Virus record (IMG/VR): IMGVR_UViG_3300045911_000169
Span: 1-22,762 of that record
Length of the DNA stretch: 22,762 bases
Reading direction: 5' to 3' (one strand)
Origin: a virus
Below, in pieces: positions 2,506 through 22,504 of the stretch. Position 1 is the stretch's first letter. Every line of letters starts with the position of its first letter. The notes under the pieces are model-generated. The model saw only the letters and a list, made by a program, of their open reading frames with translations, had not been told where the DNA came from and ran no database searches. The translations under genes were made by a program, and so were the position numbers.

Positions 2506-2894
2506 AAGCGAATTGCCTAAATTGTCAGGCGTTCACGTTGACCTATCGGCGTGGCTTGTGCAAAAAATGTTATGACGTGAAAACGGTGCGGGTCAATTTC
2601 ATCCCGAAAAGGGCGCCAGCCGTTCGCGATATGATTTGCGCAGTATGCCACAATTTGCGTAGTAGGGTATCCCACACGAATGACATATGCCGTTCCTGCC
2701 GTCGTGCTATAAGCGAATCCAAGCCGATAGTAGACGACACGATAGACCTGCCACTAGCACCGATCCCAACATGCGAGACGCCCGGCACAAAAGAAAAAAT
2801 CGAGATAATGGCCAAAAGGGCCGAGAATGGTTACGCCGTGTTCCATCCTCGGGATAAAACTATCCGTGAATGGTTAGCGGAGAACCCAACGTGA
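2484..2894 (+). CDS. Small double zinc-ribbon protein of unknown function
   Basis: This 136-aa basic protein has two Cys4-type clusters: CLNC with LCKKC in the first 30 residues, and ICAVC with ICRSC at about residues 51-72. Both have the CxxC...CxxC layout of zinc ribbons. The rest is low in recognisable features, with a C-terminal FHPRDKTIREWLAENPT segment. It overlaps the exonuclease gene by 22 bases, and its TGA overlaps the GTG of the primase gene, so it is translated as part of this replication operon. A role in DNA or protein binding at replication or recombination is plausible from the zinc ribbons and neighbours, but I do not recognise a named family. Confidence 0.7.
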   Translation: MPRKRIVKANCLNCQAFTLTYRRGLCKKCYDVKTVRVNFIPKRAPAVRDMICAVCHNLRSRVSHTNDICRSCRRAISESKPIVDDTIDLPLAPIPTCETPGTKEKIEIMAKRAENGYAVFHPRDKTIREWLAENPT

Positions 2895-5074
2895 CGATCC
2901 ATGAAATTCTATCACGACTCACAGCGGTCAGAGTAACAGGCGAGAAAAAATGGGTCGCAAAATGTCCAGCACACGATGACGATAAACCTAGTTTATCTAT
3001 CGCTCAAACAGATAAAAAAGTATTGATTCATTGCTTCGCTGGATGCTCAACCGAGCAAGTCGTTCAAGCGTTAGGTATTCGATTGAGCGATTTGAATCTC
3101 GATAACTCTCAGAGATACTACACGCTACAACATTGCGTTGATAGTTATCGCAAGAAGCTCGGTGAACCTAATGCCATATACTACTATCGCAATAGGTCAA
3201 ACGATGTTGTGGGCGTTGTTATTCGCTGGGAAACGAGCAAGGGGAAAGAGATTCGTCCAGCATCTTTATCGAGCGGCTCTTGGATGATGCAAGCGATGAG
3301 CGAACCGAGACCGTTGTATAACCTACCAAAAATACTCTCAGCGGATCAGAGCGAAACTATATGGGTCGTTGAAGGCGAGAAATGCGCTGACGCACTCAAC
3401 CAACTAGGTTTTATTGCAACGACTTCCTCGGGCGGTGCTAATGCCGCATTGAAAAGCGATTGGTCGCCTCTTTATGGCCGCAATGTTGTCCTCGTTCCTG
3501 ATAATGACAACGCTGGCGAAAAATATGTTACAGAGATAAATTCCAAACTATCTAGTAATAATGCAAACGTTAAAATAGTTCGCCTTGAAGGCGTTCCAGA
3601 AAGTGGCGATGTCGTCGATTGGCTTGCTATTCATGCCAGCGAAGATTGTCGTGCAAAATTGCAGGAAATTGCAGGCGTGACGAATCTGCAAAAATCCAAG
3701 ACGCCCACAATTATCGAGAATGCTATACGACAGATTGAAGCGATTGTCGAATCAGAAAACGAGGGCGAAGACGCATCAGTTTACGACGACATTCTCTCGT
3801 ATCAGAATTTCCCTACTGCACTACTCCCGTCAATAGTTCGCGACTATGTCAACGAATCTAGTAGCATTACAGGAAGCGATCCGGTATATACTATTCTGCC
3901 GCTTTTCTCTGTCCTCTCAGCGACTATAGGCAAGTCCGCTTGTGTTAGGATCAATTCATCGTGGATAGTATGGCCCGTAGTATGGACGATGATAATTGGA
4001 GAGAGCGGCACAATGAAAACGGTCGCAAAAAAAAGAGCGCTTGAACCACTACGCAACCTCCAATCGATTTTTTTTGCCGAATACGAAGAGGCGTTGCAGG
4101 AATACCAAGAACAAGCGAAAAACGACCAAACTGGATCGCTCAAGCCGCCAATACCTAGGCAAATAATTATCAACGACATCACGACCGAGGCGATTATCCC
4201 AGCGATTAAAGATAACGCAAACGGCTTGCTACTAGAGCGAGATGAACTCGACGGCTGGATCAAATCATTCGATAGGTATGCTCGCTCTGGCGGCTCAGAT
4301 TTATCAGCGTGGTTATCTATTTTTTCCTGCGAACCGATCACGGTAAACAGGAAGACGCAGCGAGTATTGCATGTCGAAAGCCCGTTTGTTTCAGTAACTG
4401 GCAGCATTCAGCCGGCGATACTTAGAGAAACGTTCTCGTCAAAAAAATCTCTAATTTCTAGCGGGCTTTTCGCTCGTTTTCTTTTTGCCTACCCGCCCAA
4501 AAAAAAGAAGCGACTAGTAGTGGAGGAACCTAACTATGAAAGGTCGGCTCAATTGAGCGACTTCATCGCTGACTATGTAATGAATAAACGTAATAACAAA
4601 TTTCAATACGTTTTCACAAGAGAAGCCAACAATCGTTGGAATGAATTTTTTAACGAGTTCGCAGAACGGCAATATCGTGCTAGTGGAATACGAGCAACTA
4701 TACTAGCAAAAATGGAAGAATATATACCGAAAATCGCCTTGATTTACCACGTTTGCTCGAAAGATTCAAATAATCTTTCGATCGATATAGATTCGTTAGA
4801 TTCAGCGATCGATACTTGCAATTGGTTGATCCGCGAAGGCGAAAGAATCATCACGCTAATTGAGATGGACGAGTCGGAATATGATCTAACAGAGATTATC
4901 GAATGCGTTCGCAGACTAGGCGGGCAAGTTACGGCGAGAGATTTACAGCGCAGAATATCCAAAATCAAAAGCTCGGCGGCAGCAATCGTCTATCTGAATG
5001 AACTAGCAAAATTGAATATCGGCGAATGGGAAACGATTGGGAAAAAGCGAATATTCAAATTGAGGAAATTCTAG
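2891..5074 (+). CDS. Phage primase-helicase: zinc finger, TOPRIM, DUF3987 ATPase
   Basis: Counting from the GTG at 2891 (727 aa), the order is as follows. A CHC2-like zinc finger comes first (KCPAHDD at about 24-30, HCFAGC at about 47-52). The TOPRIM domain has VEGEKC (160-165, Glu161) and PDNDNAG (Asp204, Asp206). The DUF3987-type P-loop ATPase has GESGTMKT (Walker A, 370-377), ERDELDGW (Walker B, Asp451-Glu452), the VTGSIQP segment and SGLFARFLF with a likely arginine finger. This would make RNA primers and unwind DNA at the phage fork. I chose GTG 2891 over the longer ATG at 2870: it overlaps the upstream stop as GTGA and has GGAG at 2879-2882 with an 8-nt spacer. It is the last gene of the early operon and ends 3 bases from a convergent gene, with no visible terminator. 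Confidence 0.88.
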   Translation: MTIHEILSRLTAVRVTGEKKWVAKCPAHDDDKPSLSIAQTDKKVLIHCFAGCSTEQVVQALGIRLSDLNLDNSQRYYTLQHCVDSYRKKLGEPNAIYYYRNRSNDVVGVVIRWETSKGKEIRPASLSSGSWMMQAMSEPRPLYNLPKILSADQSETIWVVEGEKCADALNQLGFIATTSSGGANAALKSDWSPLYGRNVVLVPDNDNAGEKYVTEINSKLSSNNANVKIVRLEGVPESGDVVDWLAIHASEDCRAKLQEIAGVTNLQKSKTPTIIENAIRQIEAIVESENEGEDASVYDDILSYQNFPTALLPSIVRDYVNESSSITGSDPVYTILPLFSVLSATIGKSACVRINSSWIVWPVVWTMIIGESGTMKTVAKKRALEPLRNLQSIFFAEYEEALQEYQEQAKNDQTGSLKPPIPRQIIINDITTEAIIPAIKDNANGLLLERDELDGWIKSFDRYARSGGSDLSAWLSIFSCEPITVNRKTQRVLHVESPFVSVTGSIQPAILRETFSSKKSLISSGLFARFLFAYPPKKKKRLVVEEPNYERSAQLSDFIADYVMNKRNNKFQYVFTREANNRWNEFFNEFAERQYRASGIRATILAKMEEYIPKIALIYHVCSKDSNNLSIDIDSLDSAIDTCNWLIREGERIITLIEMDESEYDLTEIIECVRRLGGQVTARDLQRRISKIKSSAAAIVYLNELAKLNIGEWETIGKKRIFKLRKF

Positions 5075-14415: not shown

Positions 14416-14748
14416 TTACATCGACGGCATATGAACCACTAGGCAAGTTTCGCCATCGCCAGCGCAAGCGGTAGCAGTAACACCGAAGACCTTATTCGTG
14501 CCCGCCGTGAGCGTAACTTTATTCGCCGTGTTGTCCCAATAGACTTTTTTATCTGCCGCGATTACGCCATCACCTACACAACGATAAACACCGCCAAACG
14601 ATGCCAATGAACCTAGTTCATTCGCTGCGATTGCTCGATGAGCAATGCGAACAGTGTCGTTGGTTACTACTACCATTCCAGCATCTATCGGAGCCGATGG
14701 CGTGTAGTCAATCATTAGAGGGTTCCCATGTACGAAAGTCGCTTCCAT
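14416..14748 (-). CDS. DUF2190-type capsid cement (decoration) protein
   Basis: This is a 110-aa, beta-rich, glycine/alanine-rich protein starting MEATFVHGNP. It has the family's typical PIDAGMVVV, GVYRCVGDG and KVYWDNTANKVT parts. DUF2190 proteins are found directly after capsid genes and act as trimeric cement on the shell. Here it comes right after the portal-protease-capsid ORF. AGGTGA 5 bases before the ATG at 14748 supports the start and suggests strong expression. Confidence 0.75.
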   Translation of the reverse strand: MEATFVHGNPLMIDYTPSAPIDAGMVVVTNDTVRIAHRAIAANELGSLASFGGVYRCVGDGVIAADKKVYWDNTANKVTLTAGTNKVFGVTATACAGDGETCLVVHMPSM

Positions 14749-14798: not shown

Positions 14799-16388
14799 TT
14801 ACACGGTCGCTTTGACGCCGCCTCGATAATCTTGCTTAGCGACCCCAAAATCATAATATCCTCGCATCTGAATTCCCAATTGATCGAAGTCGGCGTCGGC
14901 TGTTTCGATCACGGGAGTTTCATTCCCATCGACGAAACAAACTTCCATAACGGCGACTTGTGCAGGGTCGGCGATCAGATACCACGAACTAGAGGAACTA
15001 CCCGAGATAGTTGTGTTACTCAAATAAGGCGACGTGATGACGACAAAATCTTTCCCAGCGTGTGGGTTCCCCGTTGAGTATTTCGCACCGGATGCGTTGT
15101 CTCGTAACTCAGTTTGCGGGGCGATCAAAGCTCGTGCAGTATTAGCTAATGCAACCGGCACGAGCAAAAATCGAGGCGTAATATCTAACGGTGAACCATC
15201 GGGCTTCGTTTGTTCCATGAATTTCGTTTCCGCATTTGTTAACCCTGAAATTCCCAGCGGAGACGATGTTGCTAGGTTATTGTTGGATGTTGAGAAAAAC
15301 GTTGCATTATCGAGAAACGTCGTCCAAAACACTTTATTTAGTTTGCTCGCCGCGCCTAAACCAAGCTCGTTGGGAACCTCGGTCAATGCTCCGAGATCAT
15401 CGTTGATAATATCCTGACGTGTGATCGTGATCAGTTTCGCATAAGTTCGAGCTTGATTCACGAACGGTTGGTCAGATAGGCGACCGTGTTTGATCTGACC
15501 GTCTGGCCCGACTTCCTCAAACTCTAAATAACCAACGAGGCGGAGCGACGTATTTTGCTTGAAGTCGCTGACGCTCTTGATTCGTGCGATATTTCTCCAA
15601 ACGTCAGACACCGAGCGATAACCTTCGAGTAGGAATTTATTGGCCACGTTACTGAGTAAATTACTAATATCGACGTTCGAGATTCCAGCGGCTGCAATTG
15701 AGGGTCGATACAGAGCGGCGAGAATTTCTTTCACGTTATCGTTTCGGATGTAAGGTCGCCCACTATATCCGTTCGCTTTTGCTAGTTCTAAGAGCGACTC
15801 TTGCAAGCCGATTCGGCCACGATAACGCTTGTGGGATTCATCGAGAACCTGTTCAGAGAATGACGCTTCGAGTCGTTCTCGTTTCATTCCTGCCGTCTGA
15901 CAAATCGCCGCTTCCACGACCTGAGCGATATTCTGAGAACCGTTATTAAATGGGTTTTTTGCGACAACATTCACACGGGAATTTCGCAAACAGAATAACT
16001 CGAACTTCTCACTACTCCAACCGTTTTCGATCGCTTTTGCTACATCGTCTGCGTTCGCTGAGTAATTGGAAGCGATCTTGCGGATCGCATCAATTCTCTT
16101 AATTTCGTTAGAGTATTCCGCTCGAATCGCATTCAAGCTACTCGAACTTTTTCTCGCTTGTGTTCGCTTCGCTTGTGCGACTTTTTCCTCATCGAGAATA
16201 AGATCATTTACTGGCGGCTCTTGCGCTGTCATTTTTGTTTGATCGTCAACCTGAGTAGTACTATCCTGCGAACCCTCTAATTGATCGAGATAGAATTTCT
16301 CGAACTCGACGCGCAATTTTGCTAGCGTGTCCTCGCTTAGGTTCATCGCATCTAAACCCATTGATGCGAGCCATTGTTCAAAATTCAT
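14799..16388 (-). CDS. Free major capsid protein from an internal start
   Basis: An in-frame ATG at 16388 (residue 667 of the long ORF) is preceded by GGAGG with an 8-nt spacer, one of the best Shine-Dalgarno sites in the window. It would yield a 529-aa capsid precursor beginning MNFEQWLASM. That precursor has a roughly 130-residue helical, charged N-terminal region like a built-in scaffold (delta) domain, ahead of the shell domain. This is inferred from the sequence; product sizes have not been seen. Confidence 0.65.
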   Translation of the reverse strand: MNFEQWLASMGLDAMNLSEDTLAKLRVEFEKFYLDQLEGSQDSTTQVDDQTKMTAQEPPVNDLILDEEKVAQAKRTQARKSSSSLNAIRAEYSNEIKRIDAIRKIASNYSANADDVAKAIENGWSSEKFELFCLRNSRVNVVAKNPFNNGSQNIAQVVEAAICQTAGMKRERLEASFSEQVLDESHKRYRGRIGLQESLLELAKANGYSGRPYIRNDNVKEILAALYRPSIAAAGISNVDISNLLSNVANKFLLEGYRSVSDVWRNIARIKSVSDFKQNTSLRLVGYLEFEEVGPDGQIKHGRLSDQPFVNQARTYAKLITITRQDIINDDLGALTEVPNELGLGAASKLNKVFWTTFLDNATFFSTSNNNLATSSPLGISGLTNAETKFMEQTKPDGSPLDITPRFLLVPVALANTARALIAPQTELRDNASGAKYSTGNPHAGKDFVVITSPYLSNTTISGSSSSSWYLIADPAQVAVMEVCFVDGNETPVIETADADFDQLGIQMRGYYDFGVAKQDYRGGVKATV

Positions 16389-18386
16389 TGCGTTAACCTC
16401 CGTTGTGCGGGAACCTACAATAATAGTTTGAGTATTTGAATCTGCGCCTAGAACGACGACAGATATTTCACGCAAAGCGAATCCTCTTGCAACATATAAC
16501 GGCCCTTGATACTCGCGGCCGTTTACTTGTGCGATACTTTTGGGCGGGATGAATTCCATCTCGCTAGCATCACCGCCAACGCTTGCTTGCAACGGGACGC
16601 CAGAGCGATATAGTCTCAGTAGCTTATCTGAGAGATACTCGCCAGAATCGTCCTTTTTGCCGAGCTTAGATGCGATATATCCTTCGGCATGAATCAAAGA
16701 ATTTTGATATGTTATCGTGTTCGTCTTCCCTATCACGTTGTCAATATCCGCTTTGTGATCGTGCAGGATAGGGACGTTTTGAATTACATTTTTTGCAGAC
16801 GCAACATCGATAACGATTGGATATTCATATAACGGTAAATTCATTGCGTCGCCAGTATACGCGATAATGCGACAAGCCGTCCTACTCAATTCGCTCTCTG
16901 CATCATCAGCGAAAAGAGTTGCAGCGATGCTCAATTTACTTTTTGTTTTTTTTTGTGCCGTAATACTAGCACGCAATTCCTGATCGACCATAGTTAACCC
17001 GTCGAGCTTATCCTGAATGGGGTTCGGATTGAATTCTACGCCAGAGAACCCTAGACCTAATTCACGGCATCGATCCAATTCTCTGCGCCGTTGTATTAGT
17101 TGTTCTTCCCAATCGAGACCACGTGCGGAGTAAATCTCAGAGAGAGTAGTCGTGCCATTCATCAATCGCAGATTGTCAGTCGTCGCATCTTTCAGCGGGT
17201 CGATACTAGGCCGAGCGTCGAAATTCCAAGTGCGAGTAAACTGAGTAGGTAGAACGATTCCGTCTTGCAACATAGCGAGACGAAATTCTTCATACCAACG
17301 TTCAAAAATTGGATTGATTACACAACGAATAAACTCTGATCGTTCAATATCGCGACGCATCTCATACGATTGATGATCTAGCCGAGCGGAGGAATAGTTG
17401 TATTTCGAGGAATCGCCTGCGATTACTCCGAATGGGATATCGAGACAACGCCCTATTTCTCTGAGCAAAACGTCGACAAATGCAGGATAGTTTGTCGTCG
17501 GTTGCTCCGGTTTGAATTGGCTTCCGTGCCAACCGGCGGGCAGCGTCAATAGCGACCCGACTTCGAGCGGGATGTAATCAATAGGCGATTCCTGAATCAT
17601 CGGTTCAGCCGCTGGAATATTCGTTTCCATGACACCGGCTAGCATCGCTGCCGTTTCAGCGGCACGAATCGTAGCGAGAGTATATCTTCGCAATTGTGCA
17701 AATAGTTCTAGTGCTGGTGTCAGTTCGGGGATTCCTCGTAGTTGTCCAGCACGAGTAGGGCGGAACCAATGAATGACATGCGAGGCCGGAACCCAATCGT
17801 TTTTCCATGACGACCCATAGGATCGAGGGTCGCTAGGATGCGCCCGCAAAATTGAGTAAGCGATCGGCTTACCATTCTGGTCACATTTGATTCCATCGTC
17901 AGAGTTATCGCCTCTGAGATAGGGCGTGTAGAATGGTTCGGCGATTTGATCCGCTTCAATCAATCGCAAATCGAGAGATACTCGACAAATTGGGATAAAT
18001 GACAAGTCGCTTGAGAAGACGATAAACCCTTCGCCGTCTCTACGTCTGGATGTTTCTAAAATCCTTAGAGCGTTGTTCAAGCCGCTCGCTCTTGACCACG
18101 ATTCAAAGCTCGTTTCAATCAATCGGCATAGGTTGCGATCAATGCCGTGAACCTGTAACCTCGGCCCGCGCCCAATTAGATCAGCGACAAGCGTATCTAC
18201 AGCGCCTCGGCAATAGCTATTGTTGTCATACTCATAACGTGACCTATTGCGGAGAGTACGGCGATTAACCGGCGTGTTCAAAGAAGCGGGGTGCGAGGAT
18301 TTTGCTCGTGACCAATGACGTTGGTTCCCGTCGTGTGTCTGAGCCGCTTCATAGATGCCGAAGATTCGCTTGAGGAAACGTATCAT
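14799..18386 (-). CDS. Portal-protease-major capsid fusion ORF (1195 aa)
   Basis: One uninterrupted frame holds three head proteins. Residues about 1-460 are a lambda-type portal (early NRSRYEYDNNSYCRGAVDTL, then HVIHWFRPTRAGQLRGIPELTPAL, CLDIPFG, KYNYSSARLD). Residues about 475-655 are an S78/U35-like prohead protease: His542 in PILHDHK, Ser602 in LQASVGGD, then the ALREISVVVLGADSNT strand. Residues 667-1195 are a scaffold-like helical segment plus a capsid domain with VSDFKQNTSLRLVGYLEFEE, VGPDGQIKHG and ITRQDIINDDLGALTEVP. Protease-capsid fusions are known in related phages; adding the portal is unusual. Portal and shell are needed at about 12 versus hundreds of copies, so the internal start at 16388 probably makes most of the capsid protein. 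The portal ATG lacks a Shine-Dalgarno. Autocleavage could separate the parts. Confidence 0.88.
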   Translation of the reverse strand: MIRFLKRIFGIYEAAQTHDGNQRHWSRAKSSHPASLNTPVNRRTLRNRSRYEYDNNSYCRGAVDTLVADLIGRGPRLQVHGIDRNLCRLIETSFESWSRASGLNNALRILETSRRRDGEGFIVFSSDLSFIPICRVSLDLRLIEADQIAEPFYTPYLRGDNSDDGIKCDQNGKPIAYSILRAHPSDPRSYGSSWKNDWVPASHVIHWFRPTRAGQLRGIPELTPALELFAQLRRYTLATIRAAETAAMLAGVMETNIPAAEPMIQESPIDYIPLEVGSLLTLPAGWHGSQFKPEQPTTNYPAFVDVLLREIGRCLDIPFGVIAGDSSKYNYSSARLDHQSYEMRRDIERSEFIRCVINPIFERWYEEFRLAMLQDGIVLPTQFTRTWNFDARPSIDPLKDATTDNLRLMNGTTTLSEIYSARGLDWEEQLIQRRRELDRCRELGLGFSGVEFNPNPIQDKLDGLTMVDQELRASITAQKKTKSKLSIAATLFADDAESELSRTACRIIAYTGDAMNLPLYEYPIVIDVASAKNVIQNVPILHDHKADIDNVIGKTNTITYQNSLIHAEGYIASKLGKKDDSGEYLSDKLLRLYRSGVPLQASVGGDASEMEFIPPKSIAQVNGREYQGPLYVARGFALREISVVVLGADSNTQTIIVGSRTTEVNAMNFEQWLASMGLDAMNLSEDTLAKLRVEFEKFYLDQLEGSQDSTTQVDDQTKMTAQEPPVNDLILDEEKVAQAKRTQARKSSSSLNAIRAEYSNEIKRIDAIRKIASNYSANADDVAKAIENGWSSEKFELFCLRNSRVNVVAKNPFNNGSQNIAQVVEAAICQTAGMKRERLEASFSEQVLDESHKRYRGRIGLQESLLELAKANGYSGRPYIRNDNVKEILAALYRPSIAAAGISNVDISNLLSNVANKFLLEGYRSVSDVWRNIARIKSVSDFKQNTSLRLVGYLEFEEVGPDGQIKHGRLSDQPFVNQARTYAKLITITRQDIINDDLGALTEVPNELGLGAASKLNKVFWTTFLDNATFFSTSNNNLATSSPLGISGLTNAETKFMEQTKPDGSPLDITPRFLLVPVALANTARALIAPQTELRDNASGAKYSTGNPHAGKDFVVITSPYLSNTTISGSSSSSWYLIADPAQVAVMEVCFVDGNETPVIETADADFDQLGIQMRGYYDFGVAKQDYRGGVKATV
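16397..16401 (-). promoter_or_regulatory. Internal ribosome-binding site for the capsid protein
   Basis: GGAGG on the minus strand lies within codons for TEV at residues 663-665 of the long ORF, 8 bases upstream of ATG 16388. It is the signal expected for a separate capsid gene, now read through in frame because no stop codon remains upstream. Confidence 0.7.
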
Positions 18387-18405: not shown

Positions 18406-18603
18406 CTAATTGGGTCGAGGCGGCTTCACACGAGCAATGCGAAGGCATTTCCACGCTGAATGAGTTTCGCCTACTTTTTTGCTCGCGAGATACTGATCGG
18501 CCTGAATCAATTCGTCAACGCTTCGAGTCGTTACGCTTTGCCCGTCAACGCTGACCGATTGCGGCTGCTCGATTAGTTCTTCGATCTTCTCGTTTAGGTT
18601 CAT
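18406..18603 (-). CDS. gpW-like head-tail joining protein
   Basis: This is a 65-aa protein beginning MNLNEKIEELIEQ, with VSVDGQSVTTRSVDELIQADQYL in the middle and a basic, proline-rich end. Lambda gpW is 68 aa, with an N-terminal helix, a beta hairpin that reads like VxxDGRxVxFT, and a second helix; the same order is seen here. gpW stabilises the packaged head. Position between terminase and portal is the lambda order (A-W-B). Confidence 0.7.
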   Translation of the reverse strand: MNLNEKIEELIEQPQSVSVDGQSVTTRSVDELIQADQYLASKKVGETHSAWKCLRIARVKPPRPN

Positions 18604-18624: not shown

Positions 18625-20913
18625 TTAATTTTGTCTACGCTTTTTCGCTTTTTGCTCGGCAGCGATTTCGCTCCATTTCCGTTTATTACGTTTGTCACCT
18701 ATTTCCGAATTATTACCACTAGGGAATATGTTGTTATTTATCCCGCTGATGGAAGCGGCTACCATTGCGAGAACAGAGGAATCGAGCCAATGGTTCTCGG
18801 GGTTCGTTGGTTTAACTCGCCATTCGATAGCTTCTCTCGTTCTCGAAGTAACTCGGATAGGAATCTCGGCCATTAGATGCGAGAAAAACGCTTGATGGAA
18901 CGCATTAGTTTCGTTGTATATATTCAGTGAGTTAGTGGTATTGGCCGAGGAAATACGTTCCGCAAAAGTCGTCTTCCAGTAGTTCGCATCGAATATAACT
19001 AATTGCGATAGGTATTGTCCAGTCGCTGCACGAATTCGCCAATTATTTCCAGCACGATCGCCTAGTTTGAGCGGCCATTCTGATATTGGCTTAGATGTTG
19101 CAGCGATCGAATATCCCTTCGCTGGTATTATGATGCTCCTCAATTTACTCTCTCTCGCCCAGCGATAGATAACATTCGACTGATAACCACTATCGACTAG
19201 GATTCTCTCGATGTTTATTTGCGTACCATTCTCACGCAAATAAGAGCGTGAGAGTAAAAGATTAGTCAAACTATCTAGAGAATTATAGATTCTCTGTTCG
19301 GCGCTTAGTTCCGGATATACAGCCGATAAACCTCTCGTAGGCGACGATGCAGAGAATGCCAAGCCGCCTTGTTCAGGATACGTCCCGTAATCGATGATAG
19401 TACCGCCACCGCTGGGGTTCCATGCGATCATAGTGTAATAAATGATTTCGCTTTGAACGTCTATACCTACTGAGATAATTGCGGCATCGTTCGGGCTTAG
19501 GTATCGCTTTGTAGGAACGATCTTTCTCTCTAGGTTTTCGATTTGAACTAGGGCGCTGTCTGACAACGACTTCGGCATATTCTGATATTCGGCATAGAAT
19601 ACTTCGGGCGCTCTCAAATACAATTCGAGGGCGTGCTGGATCGCAGAAACCTGTTCGCTTGTATATCGATGTTGCCATGTAACACGAGCGCCGTAATCCA
19701 TTGCGTCTCGGTTTGCGATGTAGAATTGGTTCGCGATTCTCCGCTCTTGCCCGATTAGGATTTCGTAGTAGTGTTGCCACAAATCGAGCCGACTAGGAAA
19801 GCTCGACAACATAGGATAGCGTTGGCCATGCCATTGCGGGTTCCGTTTGTTGTCCACGATTCTATCCACTAAATCATCTCGACATATGATCGTTCCTGCG
19901 AGAATTGCAGCGATCGTCTTATTAGGGCCGGCTAGACCTAGCACCGCGCCATTCACCACGTTTTCTCTATTAGTTGTTTGAACGATTGATTTTGAGCTTT
20001 CATCAGTTTGCGGGTCGTCAATAATCACCAAGTCGGGGCGATATTTTTTCCCGTTGATGTTGGCCGATAACCCTCGAATTGAGGAAGTGATCCCCGCACT
20101 GATAATTCTATTTCCTGATATTTCGCTCCCTTCAATTGTGGGAAACGATAGTAATTTTGGCGTCCAAGCGTAACGTATCAAATTCCCTTTATACGTTTGC
20201 AAAGTATAACGACCACTAGAACGATGGATCGGGAGCGTCAGATTCCTAAAATCTTCCTCGATCGATTCGTTGATCTCGATCTCTTGTTTAATTGAATTTA
20301 AAAACGCCGCTGCTTGTGTTTCTGTCGCTGAGAGAATAACCACAAAGCGCCGATGAGAATATAGAGTCGCCCATATTACAGCCGCTTCCAGTAGCGTTGT
20401 CTTACCGCTTCCTCGTGGCATAGCAAACGCAAATTGTCCATCGCCTAGAATGATTCTCTCTATTGTCGAAATGCAGTCGTCGTGCATCTCGCCGAATGGT
20501 AATTCGAATCGCTGAGATAGGTAAGTCGTGCAAAAATCCCTAAATGAATTCCTACACGATTCCCTTCGTTCCGGATTATCGCAGAATACAAAATCGCCTA
20601 TTTCCCTATGCGCCTCAACGGAAATTCTCTGACGCTCAATCGTCTTTTCCCGCTGCCGCTTGTACGCTTCAACACGCTTTGCGACTTGTTCCTCTAAGTA
20701 ATCCTCATGCGTGAGTAAATGACGGAATAACCACGAAGCGAACCGAAGGAAATTGATCTTCTCTCGTGGGTTCTTCCGGACGTGGAAAGCGGATAAATCT
20801 AATAATCTTTTGATTATACTCGGGCTTATCATCCCGCCAGAATAGCTAGAGGAATTGAGCAAGTGCGCCAATTCTGTTGGCGTCATCGCTTGTAGGTTTA
20901 GTTCATCGCTCAT
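18625..20913 (-). CDS. Terminase large subunit (gpA-like)
   Basis: This 762-aa packaging ATPase/nuclease has Walker A at PRGSGKTT (Lys171) and Walker B at LVIIDDPQTD (Asp299-Asp300). It also has HRRFVVILSATE and the TIICRDDLVDRI coupling-type region. The C-terminal nuclease half begins with IISVGIDVQSEIIYYTMIAW and continues with ILVDSGYQSNVIYRWAR. This matches terminases of the lambda gpA/GpA-like group. The N-terminal 130 residues are helical and may replace part of the small subunit's role. A basic tail (KRKWSEIAAEQKAKKRR) ends the protein. The ATG at 20913 overlaps the upstream small gene by 11 bases and has only a weak Shine-Dalgarno, so translation is probably coupled. Confidence 0.88.
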   Translation of the reverse strand: MSDELNLQAMTPTELAHLLNSSSYSGGMISPSIIKRLLDLSAFHVRKNPREKINFLRFASWLFRHLLTHEDYLEEQVAKRVEAYKRQREKTIERQRISVEAHREIGDFVFCDNPERRESCRNSFRDFCTTYLSQRFELPFGEMHDDCISTIERIILGDGQFAFAMPRGSGKTTLLEAAVIWATLYSHRRFVVILSATETQAAAFLNSIKQEIEINESIEEDFRNLTLPIHRSSGRYTLQTYKGNLIRYAWTPKLLSFPTIEGSEISGNRIISAGITSSIRGLSANINGKKYRPDLVIIDDPQTDESSKSIVQTTNRENVVNGAVLGLAGPNKTIAAILAGTIICRDDLVDRIVDNKRNPQWHGQRYPMLSSFPSRLDLWQHYYEILIGQERRIANQFYIANRDAMDYGARVTWQHRYTSEQVSAIQHALELYLRAPEVFYAEYQNMPKSLSDSALVQIENLERKIVPTKRYLSPNDAAIISVGIDVQSEIIYYTMIAWNPSGGGTIIDYGTYPEQGGLAFSASSPTRGLSAVYPELSAEQRIYNSLDSLTNLLLSRSYLRENGTQINIERILVDSGYQSNVIYRWARESKLRSIIIPAKGYSIAATSKPISEWPLKLGDRAGNNWRIRAATGQYLSQLVIFDANYWKTTFAERISSANTTNSLNIYNETNAFHQAFFSHLMAEIPIRVTSRTREAIEWRVKPTNPENHWLDSSVLAMVAASISGINNNIFPSGNNSEIGDKRNKRKWSEIAAEQKAKKRRQN

Positions 20914-21264: not shown

Positions 21265-22176
21265 TTATTCGTTAATCGGCTGCGACCTCTTATCCTTCGA
21301 CTTATCAAGCAACTCATTCAGGCGATCGTTCATTTTGATAAACCCTCTCTCGATCGCTGAATCTATGTCGACTATCACCAGCGCCAAAACCTCAAATAGT
21401 GATTTAACTATCTGATCGCTGTAGCAATAGTATTTTGCAATAAGATCGAAACGGAATCGTATAAACCCATGAGCGGCAGCACATAGGAAGTCGTGTATAT
21501 CGCGAGATAAAACGTTGCGATAGGAATTGATCTTGACTAGTAGTTGGTCGGCTTTCTCACGATTGTATAACTCAGTTATCGTGGGCGGCGAATCCTTTTT
21601 CGGCTCGTAGACTATCGGCCTTGTCTGGGTCGATACATATTTTTCTTCCTGTTGACCGTCTTTGCTCGTGCCGCTTTGTTCGTCTTCCTCATCGCCTTCG
21701 CGCTCTTCATCGCCTTCGATCTCGTCATAACCCTCGCCCTCTTTTTTGCCTTCGATTGCGCTCGATTCGTTTTGTCGCTCAATTGAATCTTTGATCGTTG
21801 CCAACAAATCGTCGAGAGCAAACGCCTCGTATGAAATTGCATCATCGCCGAGCTTACTCAATTCGCTTTGCAGTAGGTCAATGTCCCATTCCGCGAACTC
21901 ATTACTACGATTGTCAGCGATTCGATATGCTCGCACTTGCTCTTCGCTCAGATCGGTCGCAACGTGAACGGGAACTACTGATAGATTCAGATATTTTGAT
22001 GCGTGGTAACGTGTGTGGCCAGCGATAATGACATAGTTTGAATCAACTACTATCGGTTGCCGAAACCCATATTGCCTAATACTCTCAGCGACCGCTCGAA
22101 TCGCTTCATCGCTGATATTTCTAGGGTTATTCTCATACGGCTTGATCCGATCTATCGAGATCGCTTGAACTATCAT
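21265..22176 (-). CDS. ParB-like (ParB/Srx fold) protein with phage-type C-terminal domain
   Basis: This 303-aa protein opens with a ParB N-terminal domain: IDRIKPYENNPRN (8-20), GFRQPIVVD (37-45), IAGHTRYHA (51-59) and YRIADNR. A very acidic linker follows (about 140-180), then a helical domain with LSRDIHDFLCAAAHGFIRFRFDLIAKYYCYSDQIVKSLFEVLALVIVDID. Phage proteins with this pairing are usually found beside methylase or terminase genes. The CTP-binding ParB fold can serve in DNA modification or in genome segregation; here there is no ParA and no visible parS set, so partition is unlikely. The VRR-NUC gene lies 4 bases upstream, so the two are co-expressed at the start of the late operon. Confidence 0.82.
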   Translation of the reverse strand: MIVQAISIDRIKPYENNPRNISDEAIRAVAESIRQYGFRQPIVVDSNYVIIAGHTRYHASKYLNLSVVPVHVATDLSEEQVRAYRIADNRSNEFAEWDIDLLQSELSKLGDDAISYEAFALDDLLATIKDSIERQNESSAIEGKKEGEGYDEIEGDEEREGDEEDEQSGTSKDGQQEEKYVSTQTRPIVYEPKKDSPPTITELYNREKADQLLVKINSYRNVLSRDIHDFLCAAAHGFIRFRFDLIAKYYCYSDQIVKSLFEVLALVIVDIDSAIERGFIKMNDRLNELLDKSKDKRSQPINE

Positions 22177-22180
22177 AAAA

Positions 22181-22504
22181 CTATTCCAGTATTGTTTTAA
22201 CCTCTTCGTATGTTGACGGCCTCGCTACTATGAACGACAAGCCGCAACGAAGAATCCTCTTACGCCATAATATTTGCTCGTTTGTAAGACGTCCAGTATC
22301 CGTTTTGACTTCGATGAAAAGTATACGCTCATCTCGCACTAGGATCAGGTCGGGGAACCCCTTCCCATCGATCGCAGCCGGCGTGAACCAACGACCTCGA
22401 TGATAGAGTTTCGTAAAATGAACTACGGCCCAATTTTTCAGTTTCGCATAAGCGACTATCTCTCTCTGATAGTCCGACTCGTTTCTTTTTTTTCTACGCG
22501 CCAT
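22181..22504 (-). CDS. VRR-NUC domain nuclease
   Basis: This 107-aa stand-alone VRR-NUC protein has a basic N-terminus (ARRKKRNESDYQREIVAY), GKGFPDLILVR with Asp52, FIEVK with Glu65 and Lys67, and LTNEQILWRKRI. These are the PD-(D/E)xK residues of the family. Such phage proteins act as structure-specific endonucleases, probably Holliday-junction or branched-DNA resolvases that clear replication products before packaging. It is the first gene of the late operon. The ATG at 22504 has only a weak TAGG-type Shine-Dalgarno. Confidence 0.82.
   Translation of the reverse strand: MARRKKRNESDYQREIVAYAKLKNWAVVHFTKLYHRGRWFTPAAIDGKGFPDLILVRDERILFIEVKTDTGRLTNEQILWRKRILRCGLSFIVARPSTYEEVKTILE

Follow-up and report, generated by a model that had tools for sequence, protein, structure and literature searches.

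A portal, prohead protease and major capsid protein fused in one reading frame of a tailed phage, with a conserved candidate internal start for the capsid product

Results

A single minus-strand frame carries portal, protease and capsid domains

The window analyzed here, a whole IMG/VR virus record of 22,762 bases, reads by Pfam and PHROG searches as a tailed-phage head-tail module, with a terminase, an adaptor, a fused head ORF, a decoration protein and a tape measure protein (Table 1). Judging from relatives in Planctomycetota genomes, this virus of bacteria probably has a Planctomycetes host. Genes for a ParB-like protein and a VRR-NUC nuclease lie upstream of the terminase gene (21265-22504), and a primase-like protein (CHC2 zinc finger, Toprim, DUF3987) is encoded at 2870-5074 on the opposite strand.

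The fused head ORF comprises 1195 codons on the minus strand, opening with an ATG at 18386 and running to 14799 without an internal stop. The original prediction had placed portal, protease and capsid domains in this one ORF, without stating its strand, and the profile matches bear this out. Its portal part matches Phage_portal_2 (PF05136) at residues 22-339 (E 3e-60) over most of the Pfam model (5-344 of 354), as expected of a lambda-family portal, and phrog_21 at residues 11-451. At the other end, residues 904-1193 match Phage_capsid_4 (PF25209; E 2e-44). A match to the "major head and protease protein" family phrog_4523 extends over residues 538-1193 (E 5e-72), which places both of these domains in one frame, as in the protease-capsid fusion class, and a head maturation protease match covers residues 588-758 (E 2e-8). 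The Pfam search listed no protease family for this ORF; on the basis of the PHROG match and a conserved motif, the domain appears to work like a protease of the U35/S78 type. Of the His/Ser pair proposed earlier, Ser602 is conserved, but the histidine is residue 544 rather than 542: His544 and Ser602 are invariant in the family alignment (A4), and the His and Ser motifs are readable in all fused members. By their position and modelled helices, residues 667-900 would serve as a scaffold.

An AlphaFold2 model of the fused ORF (34 alignment rows; mean pLDDT 71, pTM 0.42) contained folded domains with linkers of low confidence between them, at residues 448-500, 651-665 and 704-749, the first of which is predicted to be disordered. 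Using Foldseek on this medium-confidence model, we found that the top PDB matches were the lambda and R4C portals (lambda portal, E 2e-17), consistent with a portal fold, and that the phiCD508 capsid was also among the matches.

Table 1. Features of the fused head ORF and its neighbors (positions in the window)
Feature	Position	Strand	Remarks
Terminase large subunit	18625..20913	-	GpA_nuclease, phrog_38
Small head-tail adaptor gene, upstream neighbor	18406..18603	-	phrog_2545, weak (E 0.002); syntenic with L104
Fused ORF portal-protease-scaffold-capsid (P0001)	14799..18386	-	1195 aa; Pfam and PHROG domain matches
Lambda-family portal domain (residues 1-451)	17034..18386	-	PF05136, phrog_21; fold matches 8xow/8k38
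Portal/protease linker (residues 448-500)	16887..17045	-	pLDDT < 50; variable between window and L104; gene boundary of relatives lies here
In-frame ATG, codon 466	16989..16991	-	weak SD, -3.2 kcal/mol
A9 homopolymer in linker	16946..16954	-	-1 shift leads to TAA, +1 shift to TGA, a few codons on
U35-like prohead protease domain (residues 501-660)	16407..16886	-	phrog_3244/4523; conserved His544, Ser602
Conserved His544 codon	16755..16757	-	invariant column H60 of A4
Conserved Ser602 codon	16581..16583	-	invariant column S118 of A4
Internal Shine-Dalgarno GGAGG	16397..16401	-	8 nt before ATG667; duplex -10.2 kcal/mol
Candidate internal start codon ATG667	16386..16388	-	predicted scaffold-capsid product 529 aa; ATG here in 155/165 and 71/73 relatives
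Putative scaffold/delta-like helical region (residues 667-900)	15687..16388	-	between protease and capsid; model helices
HK97-fold major capsid domain (residues 904-1195)	14802..15677	-	PF25209; phiCD508 capsid fold match
Head decoration/cement protein, downstream neighbor	14416..14748	-	PF09956, E 6e-16

The fusion recurs among relatives that mostly have two genes

In cultured relatives (494 records matched, the lower-ranked 434 of which were sampled only), portal and protease-capsid match as separate pieces. The seven cultured phages that we opened have them as neighboring separate genes that either overlap or have a few tens of bases between them, and in FP_Epona the protease and capsid are also split, with a separate capsid gene, led by a strong Shine-Dalgarno sequence (SD), after a separate protease gene. 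Among viral contigs, the portal and protease-capsid ORFs differ in frame as a rule (+1 in 119 cases, +2 in 33) and share a frame in 4.

The linker's A9 homopolymer is followed directly by stops in both other frames, so we had to take the possibility of a one-base error seriously. On this explanation, a stop codon lost in assembly or sequencing, or an error in the homopolymer, would have joined two genes that the majority of relatives keep apart and in different frames; gaining or losing a single base there would end the frame at once. A lost stop or frameshift of this kind had been suspected from the start, and it is refuted by the relatives. A viral contig from another sample (3300035183_000114, hereafter L104), which forms one clade with the window (support 100), is fused likewise, 60% identical over the full length and has the same gene order, but its linker differs from that of the window in sequence and, by whole codons, in length, and lacks the A9 run. 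The search of relatives for fused ORFs, as originally suggested, also found them in further lineages: an identical ORF in two samples (L028 and L089), L149 and its 91% relative L301, L302, L090, and L288, L289 and L290 from three samples. Given these fusions outside the window's lineage, and the identical or nearly identical ones across samples, we rejected the homopolymer error; we regard an artefact of either kind as highly improbable and conclude that the 1195-codon ORF is a genuine, intact portal-protease-capsid fusion.

The fused ORF of L288-L290 is 1324 codons long and has an extra segment of ~180 residues between portal and protease; on visual inspection, this segment looks like the C-terminal tail of the portal that L039 encodes separately. 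A sample of 392 Planctomycetota genomes yielded no fused ORF, and one ORF reported there as 1397 aa (G215) is really two ORFs separated by a stop. Two genomes, G001 and G008, reached via L189 and L190, had 12 and 17 matching places per genome, so that a single host may carry several related prophages. Portal frames with a single internal TAA or TGA (G084:C139, G285:C997 and G251:C29) represent decayed prophages, errors or recoding. A first scan with a single protein had found no relatives.

A conserved Shine-Dalgarno sequence precedes an internal ATG

Codon 667, between the protease and the scaffold-capsid part, is an ATG with CGGAGGTTAACGCA just before it. Scored against an assumed canonical anti-SD, its SD (-10.2 kcal/mol) surpasses those of all 22 ORF starts in the window, and the fused ORF's own portal start is among the weakest (+0.6, no SD). 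This weak portal start is not common to L104, which has a good SD there (-8.6). Since many window ORFs have weak SDs, SD strength may be a poor predictor of initiation in this host.

The internal ATG and its SD are conserved at the nucleotide level. Despite a highly variable surrounding linker, an ATG lies within 8 codons of this place in 155 of 165 aligned relatives, and 97% of these ATGs follow a core SD, as against 11% of the 1594 in-frame ATGs elsewhere (mean anti-SD duplex energy: -7.6 vs. -2.7 kcal/mol; p 3e-75, a value that is too small, since the sequences are related). When we considered the 73 relatives that are <70% identical, the ATG was present in 71, with a core SD in 96% of these, and seven other Met-rich columns of the same 73 representatives had a core SD in 0-16%. 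The internal SD is found in each of the three codon phases, encodes 68 distinct pentapeptides and is mostly spaced 5-9 nt from the ATG; the peptide before the ATG is TTEVNA-M in the window and KIGGNA-M in L104. As the SD occurs in all phases and the peptides differ, we conclude that the nucleotide signal, not the peptide, is under selection.

Six cultured phages that we checked have the same internal SD-led ATG, including those with proteases annotated as ClpP (F10 and Gifsy-2). At the loci of the cultured phages L002-L007 and at other protease-capsid loci, an SD-led in-frame ATG lies at the protease/scaffold boundary (residues 214-223). Protease-capsid ORFs in the wider family have this candidate internal start as a rule, the six cultured phages included, and the capsid in such annotated fusions is probably made separately. 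In phage lambda, Nu3 is nested in-frame in C; the locus studied here has the sequence layout of such a nested gene, namely an in-frame SD-led start after the protease domain. The original prediction held that the fusion implies polyprotein processing, internal initiation or both. The need for one of these stands, and the capsid data (SD-led ATG667, 71/73) favor internal initiation. The further proposal was that the fusion, if conserved, is a distinct way of setting head-protein ratios; with protease-capsid ORFs bearing the candidate internal start already prevalent in the wider family, the triple fusion need not bring a new way of setting the capsid:portal ratio.

Loss of the portal/protease boundary is rare and probably recurrent

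The linkers of the window and of L104 contain no SD-led start, and ATG466 is unsupported as a separate start for the protease, given this finding in L104 and its own weak SD. L149 has an SD-led start at codon 486 (-10.3), ahead of the protease; its fusion may amount to no more than the disappearance of a gene boundary, the start of the protease being retained. No cleavage site was identified in the fused ORF.

Fused ORFs make up 8 of 234 distinct (non-redundant) rows. The state changes between fused and unfused 6 times on a FastTree tree and also 6 times on an IQ-TREE tree (mixture model, quick search, 41 rows), after an earlier count of 4; on these trees losses are indistinguishable from gains. 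Based on the 6 state changes, the fusion probably arose several times, and both a single conserved origin and the conserved single strategy envisaged at the outset are unsupported. L149 is fused but L304, which shares 81% identity with it, is unfused, a difference that represents a recent gain or loss of the gene boundary. The unusual step at this locus is the loss of the portal/protease boundary, which is rare and recurrent.

Discussion

We consider it probable, from the sequence features described above, that the locus yields a rare full-length chain and an abundant, internally initiated scaffold-capsid protein, and that the portal is freed by the protease. Ribosomes at the first ATG, which has no SD, would make little of the full-length portal-protease-scaffold-capsid chain, and ribosomes at ATG667, with its perfect SD, would make an excess of scaffold-capsid protein. 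In the procapsid, the portal ring and the protease would come from a few long chains, and the protease would then cleave the disordered linkers, including that at residues 448-500, free the 12-subunit portal, and remove itself and the scaffold part. The ratio of 12 portals to hundreds of capsid subunits would be reached through relative initiation, as in lambda C/Nu3 and Mu. An in-frame scaffold start lies inside the protease gene of Mu, and a putative one is found in PaMx73 (PMC4378225). In HK97, the capsid protein includes the scaffold as one of its domains, and the portal is believed to nucleate assembly (PMC10275583), which makes a tether from portal to scaffold-capsid plausible.

The conserved protease residues and the disordered linkers, which suit cleavage, would equally fit a locus that makes only the full-length chain and cuts it into equimolar portal, protease and capsid, with surplus portal discarded. 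However, such a polyprotein would waste large amounts of portal and leave the nucleotide-level conservation of the SD before ATG667 without a purpose, so that we find this explanation quite unlikely. Free portal could also arise by transcriptional or ribosomal slippage at the A9 run, ending some chains after the portal and giving a product of ~485 aa beside the fusion. The close stops in both other frames fit this proposal, as does the length of the product, which is that of the relatives' separate portals, but the run is not conserved in L104, and the window contains eleven A or T homopolymers that are eight or nine bases long, so A9 is not special. Slippage is therefore unlikely in our judgment, and it could add to, rather than replace, initiation at two starts.

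A different question is whether the fusion itself matters. Separate and fused genes may be equivalent, since the protease detaches the portal, and fusions would then come and go. The six state changes on the tree and the patchy distribution argue for such neutrality, as does L149, which is fused yet keeps an SD-led start before its protease while a close relative is unfused; on the other side, the fusion has persisted in both the window and L104 across a long divergence, and neither linker has an SD-led start for the protease. We give neutrality, which is compatible with an internal capsid start, a little under an even chance. More tentatively, and with the odds against it, the covalent chain could be an assembly device, in which 12 portals, each joined to a protease of its own and to a single capsid subunit, nucleate the growth of the abundant scaffold-capsid. 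If true, this arrangement would provide exactly one portal vertex and automatic loading of the protease, with the ring then released by proteolysis.

It has long been asked how tailed phages assemble a shell that has exactly one portal, with protease and capsid in the right numbers. Viruses with portal-protease-capsid chains, apparently recurrent in evolution, are natural experiments on this question: if they are viable, a portal can be attached to protease and shell protein at the outset. In addition, the conserved internal SD and ATG mean that many genes annotated as "protease-capsid fusions" probably give rise to the capsid as a product of its own as well, so that they should be annotated and expressed differently. 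Our searches of the open-licence literature turned up neither a single-frame fusion of portal, protease and capsid nor a description of an internal capsid start within protease-capsid fusions.

Parts of this arrangement are known from other phages. Protease-capsid fusions (PMC5513430, PMC8508860, PMC6536676) and protease-scaffold-capsid fusions (PMC7302621, PMC8508860) have been reported, and Arthrobacter clusters AM, AU and AN have protease-major capsid fusions too. Those of phrog_4523 (Pseudomonas F10/MD8, Rhodobacter RcDormio, Gifsy-2 and Paracoccus Psul1) resemble the present gene in combining protease, a scaffold-like region and an HK97 capsid within a single ORF, but their portal is a separate gene, whereas the fused ORF described here includes it. 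The portal-MuF fusions of Microbacterium and Arthrobacter phages (PMC7302621, PMC5513430) likewise join the portal to another head gene; their partner is the minor head protein MuF, while here it is protease and capsid. The protease genes of lambda (C/Nu3) and Mu share an in-frame internal start after the protease, with the downstream product in excess; unlike here, both phages encode the capsid in a gene of its own, their nested product consists of scaffold alone and no portal is fused. Finally, the HK97 delta domain is likewise a scaffold that forms the N-terminal part of the capsid protein and is removed by a protease, although HK97 encodes portal, protease and capsid in three separate genes rather than in one.
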